This document shows, piece by piece, positions 22,271 to 29,090 of a stretch of DNA of 64,000 nucleotides. Location: NCBI GenBank assembly GCA_026196575.1, contig JAPHSX010000057.1:1-64000 (forward strand). Reading direction: 5' to 3'. The DNA is from Gammaproteobacteria bacterium. Lineage in GTDB: Bacteria; Pseudomonadota; Gammaproteobacteria; Thiohalomonadales; Thiohalomonadaceae. Within the stretch, counting starts at the first letter, position 1. Every line of letters starts with the position of its first letter. The translations under genes and the position numbers were made by a program. The notes under the pieces are model-generated. The model searched no databases, was not told the DNA's origin, and saw nothing but the letters and a program-made list of their open reading frames with translations.

Positions 22271-25200
22271 ATGAGCGACATGAGCAGCATGAGCAGCGAC
22301 TCCCCGGTCCGCATTCGCGAGATCCCCTACAACTACACCTCCTTTTCTGACCGCGAGATCGTGATCCGTTTCCTCGGCGAGGAGATGTGGCGGGTGCTTG
22401 ATCTGCTGCGCGGCGAGCGGGTCACCGGTCGTTCGGCGCGCATGCTGTTTGAGGTGCTGGGAGATATGTGGGTCATCAGCCGCAACCCCTTCATTCAGGA
22501 CGACCTGATTGAAAACCGCAAGCGCTGGGAGTCGCTGGTACACGCCCTCTATCACCGCCTCGACCAGATCGAACAGCGGGCCGATGAGAATCCCCAGGCG
22601 CTGGCGTTGGCCGCCGCCACGCGTCAGGCGGTGAAGAAATTCGAGCAGTGGCTCCCCTGCGTCAGGGAGAAGCGCATTGAGGTGCGCCGCCGCCTGCTGA
22701 AGGTGACGCGCAGAGACAATATCCAGTTCGACGGGCTGGCCCGCGTGAGCCACGTGACCGACGCCTCCGACTGGCGGGTGGAGTACCCGCTGGTGGTGCT
22801 CACCCCGGAGAACGAGGCCGAGGTGGCCGCGGTGGTGCGTGCCTGCATCGAGCTGGAGCTGACCATCATCCCGCGCGGCGGCGGCACCGGTTACACCGGC
22901 GGGGCGGTGCCGCTGCACGCCGACAGCGCGGTGATTAACACCGAAAAGCTGGAGCACCTCTCGGCGGTAACGCTGCGCCGCCTGCCCGGGGTGGCGGCGG
23001 AGGTGGCGACCATCGAGGTCGGCGTCGGGGTGGTGACCCGCCGCGTCTCGGAGCGGGCGGAGGCGGCGGGCTATGTCTTTGCCGTCGACCCCACCTCGCA
23101 GGATGCCTCCTGCATCGGCGGCAATATCGCGATGAATGCCGGTGGCAAGAAGGCGGTGATGTGGGGCACCACGCTCGACAATCTGGTCTCCTGGCGCATG
23201 GTGATGCCGGACGGCGAGTGGCTGGAGGTGGAGCGGCTCGACCACAATCTGGGGAAGATCCACGAGGTGGCGCAGGCACGGTTTCGTATCAGCCGCTACG
23301 GCCTCGATGGGAAAACCTTAAAGGGCGAGCCGGAGCTGCTGGCGATCCCCGGCGAGCAGCTGCGCAAGCGCGGTCTCGGCAAGGATGTGACCAACAAGTT
23401 TCTCGGTGGCCTGCCCGGCATCCAGAAGGAGGGGTGTGACGGCATCATCACCTCGGCGGTCTTCATCCTGCACCGCATGCCCCGCTTTACCCGCACCGTC
23501 TGCCTGGAGTTTTTCGGCAGCGAGCTGCGCCGCTCGGTGCTTGCCATCGTCGAGACCAAGGACTATCTGGATGCCCTGGAGGGGGTGATGCTGGCGGGGC
23601 TGGAGCACCTGGACGACCGCTATATCAAGGCGGTCAACTACAGCACCAAGGCGCCGCGCGCCGACCTGCCGAAGATGGTACTGCTGGCCGATATCGTGGG
23701 TGAGGATGAGGCGCGGGTGGCCGAGGCCGCCTCGATGGTGGTGCGCATGGCCAACGCCCGCGAGGCGGAGGGCTTTATCGCCACCAGTCCCGAGGCGCGC
23801 CACCGTTTCTGGGCCGATCGCGCACGCACCGCAGCCATCGCCGCCCACACCAACGCCTTCAAGATCAACGAGGATGTGGTGATCCCGCTGGAACGCCTGG
23901 CCGATTACGCCGAGGGGATCGAGCGTATTAACATCGAGCAGTCGATTCAGAACAAGCTGCAGATCATCGGCCGGGTGGCCGCCTGTCTGCGTGGCGGCCT
24001 GCCCGAGCGCGGCAGCGATCTCGACTATCAGGAGAGCGCGGAGAATACCGCCATCATTGCCGCCAAACTGGCGGCGGCCGAGGCCCATCTGGCCGCCACT
24101 GCCGAGCGCTGGCGTGCACTGCTGCAGGGGCTGGATCGACCGCTGGCGGACGCGGCGGATGAGCCGGCGGGCGGCGAGACGGTGTTTGCCCTGCTGCTAC
24201 GCCGGGAGCTGCGGATCTCCTGGCGTGACGAGGTAGAGCGGCCGCTCAAGGAGATCTTCTCCGGGCGCGAGCTGCAGGGGGTACGCGACCGCTTTGATGC
24301 GATCCATGCCGAACTGCGCCCGCGCCGCCTCTTCGTCGCCACCCACATGCACGCGGGCGACGGCAACGTACACACCAATATCCCGGTCTTCTCCAACGAC
24401 TATGAGATGCTGCACGAGGCCGAGCGGGTAGTGGAGCGCATCATGCACCTGGCCGAGGCGCTGGGCGGGGTGATCTCGGGCGAGCACGGCATCGGTCTGA
24501 CCAAGATGCAGTTCCTCGCCCCCGAGGCGGTGGCGGCCTTTGCCGAGTACAAGCAGCAGGTGGATCCGGCGCACCACTTCAATCGCGGCAAGCTGCTGGC
24601 CGGATCGGGGCTGGAGAACGCCTACACCCCGTCGCTGCGCCTGCTGCAACAGGAGGCACTGATCCTCGAGGCGAGCGAGCTCGGTGAGCTCAACGACATG
24701 GTCAAGGACTGTCTGCGCTGCGGCAAGTGCAAACCGGTCTGCACCACCCATGTGCCGCGCGCCAACCTGCTCTACTCGCCGCGCAACAAGATCCTCGCCA
24801 CCGGCCTCATCGTCGAGGCCTTTCTCTACGAGGAGCAGACCCGGCGCGGCATCTCGGTGCGCCACTTCGACGAGATGAACGACGTGGCCGACCACTGCAC
24901 CGTCTGCCACCGCTGCGTCAAACCCTGTCCGGTGAATATCGACTTTGGCGATGTCTCGGTGCGAATGCGCAACGTGCTGCGACGGCACGGGCAGAAGCGC
25001 TCGCGCCTCGGCACCCGCATGGCGATGCTGTTCCTCAACATTACCGATCCGTCGACCATCAAGCTGATGCGCACCGCGATGATCCGCTGGGGCTACGCCG
25101 GGCAGCGTCTGGGTTACACCCTGGCCAGGCGCCTGGGGCTGCTGCGTGACAAACGCCGCCCGCGGGGAACCACCGGCAAGATGCACCTCAAGGAGCAGGT

Positions 25201-26119
25201 AATCAACTTTGTGAAGCGGCCACTGCCGGGCGGTCTGCCGAGCCAGACCACGCGCGCCATGCTGGGGCTGGAGGACAACAAGGTGATCCCGATCCTGCGC
25301 GACCCGCGTGCCAGCGCCGAGGAGCAGGAGGCGGTCTTCTACTTCCCCGGTTGCGGCTCCGAGCGCCTCTTCAGCGAGGTGGGGCTGGCTACCCTGGCGA
25401 TGCTCTATAAAACCGGGGCACAGACGGTGCTGCCGCCCGGCTATCTTTGCTGTGGCTACCCGCAGAGCGCCGGCGGCGACGACCCCACCGGCAAGCGCAT
25501 CTCGACCGACAATCAGGTGCTGTTCCACCGTGTCGCCAACACCCTCAACTACATGGACATCAAGACGGTGATCGTCTCTTGCGGCACCTGCATGGATCAG
25601 CTGCTGAAATACCGCTTCGAGGCGATCTTTCCCGGCTGCCGACTGCTCGATATCCATGAGTACCTGATGGAGAAAGGGGTGCAGCTTGAGGGCGTGCCGG
25701 GGCAGCGCTACCTCTACCACGACCCCTGCCACTCCCCGATAAAGCGCCACAATCCACTAAAGGTGGCCGCCACCCTGATGGGGCAGGAGGTGCCGCTCTC
25801 GGATCGTTGCTGCGGCGAGTCGGGCACCTTCGCCGTCTCCCGCCCCGATATCGCCACCCAGGTGCGTTTTCGCAAGGAGGAGGAACTGCGCAAGGGGATC
25901 GCCGCCCTGCCTCCTGGCGCGCCAGGAGGCAGCGCGCCCGTCAAGGTTCTCACCTCCTGCCCCGCCTGCCAGCAGGGGCTGGCGCGCTACCGTGATACCA
26001 CCGGTGTCGATACCGGCTACATCGTGGTCGAACTGGCGCGCCAGTTGCACGGCGAGCAGTGGCAACGGGAATTTATCGATGAGGTGAAACAGGGCGGGAT
26101 CGAGCGGGTGCTGCTGTAA
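22271..26119 (+). CDS. Giant FAD-linked oxidase/4Fe-4S/CCG-domain fusion (DUF3683 type)
   Basis: A 1282-residue fusion. The N-terminal 150 residues match DUF3683 ([22 protein letters not shown]). A VAO-type FAD-binding domain follows ([17 protein letters not shown], about 197-213; [22 protein letters not shown]), then the FAD-oxidase C domain ([28 protein letters not shown]). Next come two 4Fe-4S sites, [11 protein letters not shown] and [12 protein letters not shown]. Two CCG domains close the protein ([21 protein letters not shown]). This is the D-lactate/glycolate dehydrogenase plus GlpC/HdrD plan on one chain. The 2-hydroxyacid substrate is inferred, not shown. A palindrome at 25907-25932 adds PPGAPGG near the C-terminus. 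No good ribosome site precedes the ATG. Confidence 0.88.
25907..25932. repeat. Perfect 26-bp palindrome inside the DUF3683 gene
   Basis: CTGCCTCCTGGCG is followed at once by its exact reverse complement. It is in frame and encodes the run LPPGAPGG just before [10 protein letters not shown]. This position is expected to be a surface loop. Confidence 0.8.
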
Positions 26120-26123
26120 CCTC

Positions 26124-26696
26124 TCAGGTATCACGCCGGCGGCGCAGCGCCGCCGACTGCGTCTCCAGCAAATGACGGATGAGGGCCTCGCGCTCGATCT
26201 CGTCCATCTGGCCGAACTCCAGCTCCACCCGATAGCCCGCCCCCTTCGCCTCGCAACTGAGCACCTTTGCCTGCAGATGCAGGCAAAGGTGTGAGGGGAA
26301 GAGCACCAGCTTGAGGGCCAGCGCACTCTGCGGCGCCAGTGCCGTAGTGCTGTCGAAACTCATCCCCTGCACCCCCAGGCTAACCCGGTGGGTGGGGGTG
26401 ATCTCACCGCCCAGCCCGACCGTACCCACCAGTTGTGCCAGGATATCGATCTTCTTGTCGAGCAGCGCCAGGTAGTTGCCGATATCGGGGTGGTGCTTGC
26501 GGATGGCGGCAAGGATGTGGCCGGACTGCAGGCCGATCTCGCGCAGCCGGATCAGGCCGTCACAAAAGCCGGAGGTGTCGTGACGCCAGGCCAGCGCCTC
26601 GTCCCCCTCCTCCACCCCCAGCGGCTGGACGTCGAGATAGAGCTCGTCATCGATGCGAAAGGTGACGGCACTCGGCTCTTGCGGGGTAGACGGCAT
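26124..26696 (-). CDS. PilZ-like domain protein
   Basis: A 190-residue cytoplasmic protein, convergent with the DUF3683 gene (4 nt between stops). The C-terminal half, from about 100, has a PilZ-like strand pattern: HRVSLGVQGMSFDS stands where PilZ proteins have (D/N)xSxxG, and the strands LKLVLFPS and YRVELEFGQM follow. The classical RxxxR element is not clear, so cyclic di-GMP binding is doubtful. The N-terminal half is helical (LIRLREIGLQSGHILAAIRKHHPDIGNYLALLDKKIDIL) and resembles the leading domain of many PilZ proteins. AGAGGAG precedes the ATG. A 30-bp palindrome lies within the gene (26262-26291). Confidence 0.7.
   Translation of the reverse strand: MPSTPQEPSAVTFRIDDELYLDVQPLGVEEGDEALAWRHDTSGFCDGLIRLREIGLQSGHILAAIRKHHPDIGNYLALLDKKIDILAQLVGTVGLGGEITPTHRVSLGVQGMSFDSTTALAPQSALALKLVLFPSHLCLHLQAKVLSCEAKGAGYRVELEFGQMDEIEREALIRHLLETQSAALRRRRDT
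26262..26291. repeat. 30-bp palindrome (14-bp perfect arms) inside the PilZ-like gene
   Basis: CACCTTTGCCTGCA and TGCAGGCAAAGGTG are exact reverse complements separated by GA. In the protein this is HLCLHLQAKV. No T-run follows, so it is not an evident terminator. Confidence 0.8.
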
Positions 26697-26720: not shown

Positions 26721-27380
26721 TTAGAGGGTGGTCACACCCGCGGCGCTGCCCACCAGCACCACGTCGGCGGGACGCAGGGCAAACAGGCCATTGGTAACCA
26801 CGCCGGTGATGTTGTTGAGCTTCTGCTCCAGCTCCACCGGGTTCATGATCTGCAGCGTGTGCACGTCAAGGATGACGTTGCCGTTGTCGGTGACAAACCC
26901 CTCGCGGTAGACCGGCTCGCCTCCCAGCTTCACCAGCTCGCGGGCGACGTAGCTGCGCGCCATCGGGATCACCTCCACCGGCAGCGGGAAGGCGCCCAGT
27001 ACCTCCACCACCTTGCTCTCATCGACGATGCAGACGAACTTCTTCGCCACCGCCGCCACGATCTTCTCGCGGGTCAGCGCGCCGCCGCCACCCTTTACCA
27101 GGTGGGCGTAACGGTTGGTCTCGTCGGCGCCGTCGATATAGACCGACATCTCGTCGACCGAGTTGAGGTCGAACACCGGGATACCGTGACCACGCAGGCG
27201 CGCGGCGCTCGCCTCTGAGCTGGCCACCGTGCCCTTGATCTGGCCCTTGATCCCGGCCAGCGCGTCGATAAAGAAGTTGGCGGTGGAGCCGGTGCCGATC
27301 CCGATAATGGTGTCGGTGACCACATGTTCGAGCGCCGCCCGAGCTACCGCCTGTTTCATTTCGTCCTGAGTCATGCCCAT
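26721..27380 (-). CDS. rpiA: Ribose-5-phosphate isomerase A
   Basis: A 219-residue enzyme interconverting ribose-5-phosphate and ribulose-5-phosphate in the pentose-phosphate and Calvin cycles. Typical motifs are [15 protein letters not shown] (26-40), [10 protein letters not shown], the active-site DGADE region [21 protein letters not shown] and [11 protein letters not shown]. Two ATGs (27380, 27374) are possible; the second matches E. coli MTQDE. The start region is 121 bp from divergent ilvA. In an autotroph the enzyme would also serve carbon fixation. Confidence 0.96.
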
Positions 27381-27501: not shown

Positions 27502-29028
27502 ATGCTGAATGACTATCTGAAACGTATCCTTACGGCCCGCGTCTACGACGTGGCGATCGAGACCCCGCTGGAGCCGGCCCCGGCCCTCTCCCTGCGCCTG
27601 CGCAACCAGGTGTGGCTGAAGCGCGAGGACCTGCAGCCGGTCTTCTCTTTCAAGTTGCGCGGTGCCTACAACAAAATGGCCAGCCTCACCCCGACGGAGC
27701 GCGCGCGCGGGGTCTGTGCCGCCTCGGCGGGCAACCACGCCCAGGGGGTGGCGATGTCGGCGCGCAAGCTCGGCATCGATGCCACCATCGTGATGCCGAT
27801 GACCACCCCCGAGATCAAGGTGCGCGCCGTCGCCGCGCGCGGCGCGCGGGTGGAGCTGGCGGGCAACACCTATGACGAGGCCTATCAGCACGCCCGCAAG
27901 CTGGCCGATGAGCGCGGCCTGACCTTTGTCCACCCCTACGATGACCCGGTGGTGATCGCCGGGCAGGGGACCGTGGCGATGGAGATGATGCGCCAGCATC
28001 CGCAGCCGGAACAGCTGGAGGCGGTCTTTGTGCCGGTCGGCGGCGGCGGCCTGATCGCCGGGGTGGCCGCCTACATCAAGGCGCTCTATCCGCAGGTGAA
28101 GGTGATCGGCGTCGAGCCGGAGGATGCCCCCTGTTTTCACGCGGCGCTCAAGGCGGGGGAACGGGTGGTGCTCGATCAGGTCGGCATCTTTGCCGACGGT
28201 GTGGCGGTAAGGCAGGTGGGCGAGGAGCCGTTTCGCGTGGCCCGCGACCTGGTGGAGGAGGTGATCCTGGTCACCACCGACGAGATCTGCGCCGCGATTA
28301 AGGATATCTTCGAGGAGACCCGCTCCATCGCCGAGCCGGCGGGCGCCCTGGCCGTTGCCGGGCTGAAGAAATATATCGCCCGTGAGGGGGTGGAGGAGAA
28401 ACTCTTCTGCGCCATCGACTCCGGCGCCAACATGAACTTCGACCGCCTGCGCCACGTCGCCGAGCGGGCCGAGCTGGGGGAGCTGCGCGAGGGACTGTTT
28501 GCCGTCACCATCCCCGAGCGCCCCGGCAGCTTCCTCAGCTTCTGCGAGACCCTCGGCACGCGCAACATCACCGAATTCAACTACCGCTACGCCGATAGCG
28601 CCAATGCCCACATCTTTGTCGGTGTGCAGTTGAGCGGCGGGCGCGAGGAGAAGGATCAGCTACTCGATGCACTGGCGCAAAAGGCACTGCCGGTGCAGGA
28701 CCTCAGCGAAAACGAAATGGCCAAACTGCACATCCGCTATATGGTCGGCGGGCGGGCCAATGCTGCGAACGAGCGGCTGCTGCGCTTCGAGTTCCCCGAG
28801 CGCCCGGGGGCGCTGCTGCGTTTTCTTACCACCCTGGGCGGACGCTGGAACATCTCCCTGTTTCACTACCGTAACCACGGCGCCGCCTACGGCCGCGTGC
28901 TGTGCGGCATTCAGGTGCCCGATGCAGATCTGCAGAAGTTCCACGCCTTTCTGGAGCAGCTTGGCTACCCCTGGTGGCAGGAGGATGGGAATCCCGCCTA
29001 CGCGCGCTTTTTGCGCTTTGAAGAGTGA
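27502..29028 (+). CDS. ilvA: Threonine ammonia-lyase, biosynthetic (IlvA)
   Basis: A 508-residue PLP enzyme making 2-oxobutanoate for isoleucine. The PLP lysine is Lys51 in FSFKLRGAYNKM. The phosphate-binding glycine loop is VGGGGLIAGVAAYIK. Two regulatory ACT-like domains follow, near residues 330-410 (FAVTIPERPGSFLSFCETLG) and 420-505 (LRFEFPERPGALLRFLTTLG), as in the isoleucine-inhibited form. The length equals the E. coli enzyme. It is divergent from rpiA and followed by the hairpin repeat 29041-29066. Confidence 0.96.
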   Translation: MLNDYLKRILTARVYDVAIETPLEPAPALSLRLRNQVWLKREDLQPVFSFKLRGAYNKMASLTPTERARGVCAASAGNHAQGVAMSARKLGIDATIVMPMTTPEIKVRAVAARGARVELAGNTYDEAYQHARKLADERGLTFVHPYDDPVVIAGQGTVAMEMMRQHPQPEQLEAVFVPVGGGGLIAGVAAYIKALYPQVKVIGVEPEDAPCFHAALKAGERVVLDQVGIFADGVAVRQVGEEPFRVARDLVEEVILVTTDEICAAIKDIFEETRSIAEPAGALAVAGLKKYIAREGVEEKLFCAIDSGANMNFDRLRHVAERAELGELREGLFAVTIPERPGSFLSFCETLGTRNITEFNYRYADSANAHIFVGVQLSGGREEKDQLLDALAQKALPVQDLSENEMAKLHIRYMVGGRANAANERLLRFEFPERPGALLRFLTTLGGRWNISLFHYRNHGAAYGRVLCGIQVPDADLQKFHAFLEQLGYPWWQEDGNPAYARFLRFEE

Positions 29029-29040
29029 AGAGCACACCGG

Positions 29041-29066
29041 CGTTCCCACGCCCCTGCGTGGGAACG
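29041..29066. repeat. Hairpin repeat after ilvA
   Basis: CGTTCCCACGC and GCGTGGGAACG are perfect 11-bp arms around a 4-nt loop, 12 nt past the ilvA stop. It has the look of a dispersed extragenic palindrome (a GTTCCCACGC type occurs in many proteobacteria). It may protect or end the ilvA transcript. Confidence 0.7.
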
Positions 29067-29090
29067 CGCGCGCATAAAGATAGTTGTGGC

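Follow-up and report, generated by a model that had tools for sequence, protein, structure and literature searches.

The window, i.e., the whole 64,000-nucleotide stretch of DNA that was analyzed, contains two convergent genes whose stop codons are 4 bp apart (26119 and 26124). The gene on the forward strand (22271..26119) codes for a 1282-residue DUF3683-FAD oxidase-4Fe4S-CCG-DUF3400 protein, hereafter the DUF3683 protein. Its convergent neighbor on the reverse strand (26124..26696) codes for a 190-residue PilZ-domain protein (Pfam PF07238, E 2.5e-5), whose score of 25.0 bits passed the gathering cut-off of 22.5. A perfect inverted repeat, CACCTTTGCCTGCA-GA-TGCAGGCAAAGGTG, is located entirely within the PilZ gene at 26262-26291. 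Its 14-bp arms, its 2-bp centre, the encoded peptide HLCLHLQAKV and the coordinates were all confirmed as given in the original prediction; the peptide corresponds to residues 136-145 of the protein (minus strand), and the palindrome stops where G at 26261 and T at 26292 fail to pair. It is the strongest perfect palindrome of the window. The other member of what we call the pair, CTGCCTCCTGGCG/CGCCAGGAGGCAG, has perfect 13-bp arms and no centre, occupies exactly 25907-25932 and falls in the C-terminal part of the DUF3683 protein, in a variable linker before TSCPAC.

Several other detected palindromes in the window were shorter or weaker. A hairpin, CGGCGGCGC-A-GCGCCGCCG (26137-26155), follows closely on the DUF3683 stop and falls within the 3'-terminal part of the PilZ gene; the segment 26120-26165 folded with -20.2 kcal/mol (z -1.96), and 8 of 200 shuffles were equally strong. 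A short palindrome, AACTGGCGCGCCAGTT, near the end of the DUF3683 gene (26032-26047) folded no better than shuffles (z -0.21). Two palindromes with 12-bp arms were found elsewhere. One, GCGTTCCCACGC-CCCT-GCGTGGGAACGC at 29040-29067, is in a spacer 11 bp past the stop of the gene at 27502-29028 and looks like a terminator or a REP-like element. The other (ATGCCGGTGGCC...GGCCACCGGCAT, 1737-1767) starts exactly at the ATG of ORF 1737-2543 and could be a start-codon hairpin, if the start of this ORF is real.

A repeat such as 26262-26291 is a fair surprise for a single window: for arms of 14 bp or more and centres of up to 20, an order-3 Markov model of the window predicted 0.03 palindromes (1 seen), and for arms of 13 bp or more 0.07 (2 seen). 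The genome comprises 2,736,237 bases in 74 contigs and, judging by the best named relatives of the DUF3683 protein, is probably gammaproteobacterial. To place the repeat in it, we counted palindromes in 60 stretches plus the window, 1,181,152 bases in total (43%), in which a simple and crude hexamer-score caller assigned 1,046,529 bases (1.05 Mb) to genes. As a null, synonymous codons were shuffled within each gene 60 times, which keeps both the protein and the codons. With centres of at most 20, coding palindromes whose arms measured 10 bp or more were seen 66 times versus 50.3 expected, those of at least 11 bp 25 times versus 16.1 (a number reached in 1 of 60 shuffles), those of at least 12 bp 9 times versus 5.15 and those of at least 13 bp 3 times versus 1.47. 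The only case with arms of at least 14 bp was 26262-26291 (0.55 expected; 23 of 60 shuffles reached it). When centres were restricted to at most 4, there were 2 cases with arms of at least 13 bp versus 0.43 expected (2 of 60 shuffles) and 1 with arms of at least 14 bp versus 0.15 expected. Earlier runs on 785 kb led to the same conclusion. Coding palindromes are mildly in excess when their arms measure 10-12 bp, whereas about one with 14-bp arms is expected per genome. Since the shuffles predicted 0.55 where 1 was seen, 26262-26291 is rare per window and ordinary per genome. The original view that such arms are very unlikely in 64 kb therefore holds for the window but does not carry over to the genome; a genome-wide count no higher than expected had been named as evidence against it, and this is largely what the 43% sample yielded.

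The same counts in 400 kb of each of three other genomes were heterogeneous. In G008, 15 coding palindromes with arms of at least 11 bp were seen versus 5.7 expected, and 5 versus 1.57 with arms of at least 12 bp; both counts include a miscalled spacer case. This case, with 14-bp arms and apparently at a convergent junction, had seemed to support a role at such junctions but was dropped as support: it is a spacer terminator located 16 bp behind a stop, and the gene called on the opposite side is spurious. In G009, the corresponding values were 6 versus 1.7 and 3 versus 0.32, including one palindrome (L261) that resembles a spacer repeat wrongly assigned to a gene. No excess was observed in G053 (0 versus 2.07 and 0 versus 0.77). 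Because G053 lacks an excess and the 14-bp case in G008 is spurious, the excess across these genomes is uneven and stems in part from gene-calling errors. Outside genes, long palindromes in the 785-kb sample were commoner for their length and mostly terminator-like (AAAAAGGC...GCCTTTTT). The longest palindrome in that sample, at L172:7495-7549 (genome C64), has perfect 24-bp arms with a 7-bp loop and is outside predicted genes.

Homologs of the PilZ protein were detected in 31 of 95 genomes, including the window's own (30 of 94 others). Among 29 aligned homologs, 28 cover the ten columns of the palindrome and the remaining one ends before them; no gap or indel was found at these columns in the 28, so 26262-26291 is not an insertion. 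In 12 family homologs compared at the DNA level, the site formed 3-8 of 14 pairs, where random codon-aligned 30-mers had a mean of 4.0 and 7.6% of them reached 7. The near homologs L004 and L006 had 7 and 8. In the homolog of the same genus (G001, 47% protein identity), the peptide is HLCLQLQSSV, which keeps HLCL.LQ..V, with 7 of 14 pairs and no symmetry. Homologs with the same protein sequence and no DNA symmetry had also been named as evidence against a special origin; the G001 homolog goes part of the way, although its peptide is not identical. As far as these comparisons reach, the symmetry appears private to its genome.

Nor does the repeat have further copies in the genome: the surrounding 101 bp matched only themselves genome-wide, and the best site elsewhere for its 22-bp core (20 specified bases) had 3 mismatches. 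This uniqueness led us to reject a repeated operator or recombination site for 26262-26291, the latter having been one of the causes originally suggested. Neither of the properties of a REP-like or dispersed element, i.e., several copies and an in-frame insertion relative to homologs, was found at 26262-26291. Palindrome insertion, another suggested cause, did not stand either: besides the ungapped alignment of the 28 homologs, the linker that carries 25907-25932 has 25 residues, which is the modal length (59 of 88 measured sequences, a set that includes the window's own, counts two loci twice and leaves out sequences not fitting the length pattern). With 26262-26291 unique and neither site showing an indel, an inserted palindromic element was rejected.

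The neighboring palindrome has a different relationship to the rest of the genome. It shares 23 exact bp (GGCGCGCTGCCTCCTGGCGCGCC, minus strand; 25916-25941) with two dispersed repeats, C62:8307-8332 and C63:30749-30774 (L156 and L155). Both represent a longer composite repeat (GAGCGACTTCAGTCGCGAACACCGGCGCGCTGCCTCCTGGCGCGCCGG...), and the outer portions of that repeat turn up elsewhere as a REP-like family with 24 matches, among them the query itself and two sites in the window. Since the shared bases are GC-rich and words similar to GGCGCGCC are abundant in this genome, descent and coincidence are indistinguishable here.

Arms of 13 bp or more together with a centre no longer than 4 bp were found in only two coding palindromes of the sample, those of the pair, which are 357 bp apart, one in each convergent gene. 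Under random placement within the sampled coding DNA, the probability that two palindrome centres fall no more than 357 bp apart is 0.00055 when only those two are counted. It rises to 0.0024 with all 3 palindromes whose arms reach 13 bp, to 0.024 with the 9 whose arms reach 12 bp and to 0.18 with the 25 whose arms reach 11 bp. These values are post hoc, because the closeness itself prompted the finding. The original prediction took this closeness as a hint of a common cause; it is indeed nominally unusual (post hoc P 0.0006-0.024, depending on threshold), but insertion and a repeated recombination site, two of the causes offered, are unsupported. The nearness of the two palindromes remains mildly odd.

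Both palindromes folded well as RNA. The 56 nt around 26262-26291 (26250-26305) gave -32.9 kcal/mol on the plus strand and -25.7 on the minus strand (z -5.9 and -4.7), and the 51 nt around 25907-25932 (25895-25945) gave -31.3 and -35.0, respectively. The first hairpin would lie 142 nt beyond the opposing stop in the plus-strand transcript, and the second 191 nt beyond it in the minus-strand transcript. Among the 116 sides of 58 tight convergent junctions, the hairpins of the pair ranked 1 and 2 (-33.7 and -29.9 kcal/mol), ranks that are post hoc; folds as strong occurred in 0.2% and 1.1%, respectively, of 453 gene interiors. As a class, tight convergent junctions showed no hairpin enrichment (mean best 45-nt fold -20.4 kcal/mol versus -21.0 in the 453 gene interiors) and no clear excess of nearby coding palindromes with 10-bp or longer arms (3 versus 1.8 expected, with this pair supplying two of the three), so that a general hairpin role at such junctions is unsupported. 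An intrinsic (Rho-independent) terminator was also rejected: the stable hairpin is present, but no T-run follows the stem directly (TGAGGGG follows 26291). A scan for T-run terminators found none at the DUF3683/PilZ junction or at either palindrome; its sole match, at 26789, is elsewhere and at chance level. A transcription roadblock for the convergent genes, the third cause originally suggested, may exist: the location of both hairpins beyond the opposing stops would allow it, but the missing T-runs and the lack of enrichment across convergent junctions lend it no help.

Taken with the counts, these data make it probable, at roughly 0.6, that 26262-26291 is an ordinary short inverted repeat that arose by chance in coding sequence. 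With mostly common codons, the DNA for HLCLHLQAKV would already come close to self-complementarity, since complementary partners occur among these codons (CTG with CAG, CAC with GTG); by our reading of the codon computation, 12 of the 14 positions pair when every codon is a common one. The 14-bp match would then be completed by two synonymous codons of lower frequency: CTT, which makes up 5.7% of Leu codons and pairs with AAG, and GCA, which makes up 8.3% of Ala codons and pairs with TGC. We infer that these two reflect drift rather than selection or templated mutation. Given this peptide and the codon usage, perfect 14-bp arms have a probability of 3.4e-4, and the many peptides of a proteome would supply about one such case per genome. 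Protein constraint and the codon table would then suffice, and a dedicated function would be unnecessary. What speaks against chance is the closeness of the two palindromes of the pair and the fact that the two rarer codons are exactly those completing the pairing. In addition, the overall excess of coding palindromes may reflect a process beyond chance that adds to them.

A process of this kind is template switching during replication between the arms of an earlier quasi-palindrome, which could have perfected 26262-26291 and could also raise the number of coding palindromes in the group. The mechanism is known in E. coli, as described in PMC7202029, the near homologs exceed the background in pairs (7 and 8 versus 4.0), and coding palindromes with arms of at least 11 bp are in excess here and in G008 and G009. 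A single switch, however, copies one whole arm, and a common-codon ancestor (CACCTGTGCCTGCA/TGCAGGCCAAGGTG) would then carry GGC (Gly) in one arm or else CAG (Gln) in the opposite one. Since, by our reasoning, these single-switch products are absent, two short events, or one plus drift, would be needed. By eye, moreover, both arms resemble homologs (the left arm L004, the right arm L007), G053 has no excess, and the counts come from a crude gene caller, with one G008 case being a spacer terminator. We consider this origin unlikely. A mobile palindrome, or a recombination or operator site, is far less probable still: the 23 bp that 25907-25932 shares with dispersed repeats would fit it, but 26262-26291 has no such match (its best other site has 3 mismatches in 20 specified bases) and neither protein carries an insertion at its site.

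A functional reading starts from the junction itself. With only 4 bp separating the stops and no terminator found in that gap, each mRNA would have to run into the opposite gene before ending. The pair might therefore set the 3' ends of the two overlapping convergent transcripts, with Rho stopping transcription and the 3' end being trimmed back to, and protected by, the hairpin. The absence of a T-run terminator-like site at the junction and the top ranks of the two hairpins agree with this, as does the C-rich run-up on the plus strand (C/G 1.59, median 1.08). In G001, other genes, two by our reading, separate the PilZ and DUF3683 genes, and the spacers there contain terminator-like sequence, read by eye. 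The first of these intervening genes, which we take to be of the OmpA/MotB kind, has a best match of only 30% identity in the window's genome. Against this role, neither hairpin is followed by T, the minus-strand run-up is average (1.08), the hairpin ranks are post hoc, and convergent junctions as a class show neither hairpin enrichment nor a clear excess of coding palindromes. We regard a role in 3'-end formation as doubtful, if somewhat less so than template switching. Its stronger form, in which each convergent gene would carry, in its own coding sequence, the hairpin that ends or protects the mRNA of the other, i.e., reciprocal 3'-end signals, is a more speculative proposal than either.

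Overlapping 3' UTRs of convergent genes lacking a terminator form an excludon-type overlap that is an RNase III substrate, according to the accounts in PMC7154746 and PMC7821165, and the locus resembles these in its convergent genes, the 4 bp between their stops and the absence of a detected terminator between them. Such cases are defined by transcript mapping, and perfect palindromes in coding sequence do not enter into their definition; here the overlap is predicted from sequence. E. coli arfA likewise has a strong stem-loop within its ORF, described in PMC10107115 as both terminator and RNase III site; that stem-loop terminates, whereas here there is no T-run and termination would truncate the sense gene within its PilZ domain. 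Quasipalindrome-associated template-switch mutation, as presented in PMC7202029 and PMC8794818, could perfect an imperfect inverted repeat, but at 26262-26291 the two arms are not explained by a single event and the nearest homolog to hand for comparison has 47% protein identity. Nematomorpha mitochondrial genes, as reported in PMC6649704, also have perfect inverted repeats inside protein-coding genes with both arms translated; theirs are numerous and reach 284 bp, whereas 26262-26291 is 30 bp long and near chance.

If 26262-26291 arose by chance, it serves as calibration only: a palindrome that is astonishing in one window is expected about once per genome from codon complementarity. If instead the reciprocal-hairpin proposal were true, it would illustrate how convergent genes that are tightly packed and lack spacer terminators can set the ends of their mRNAs within the coding sequence of the partner.
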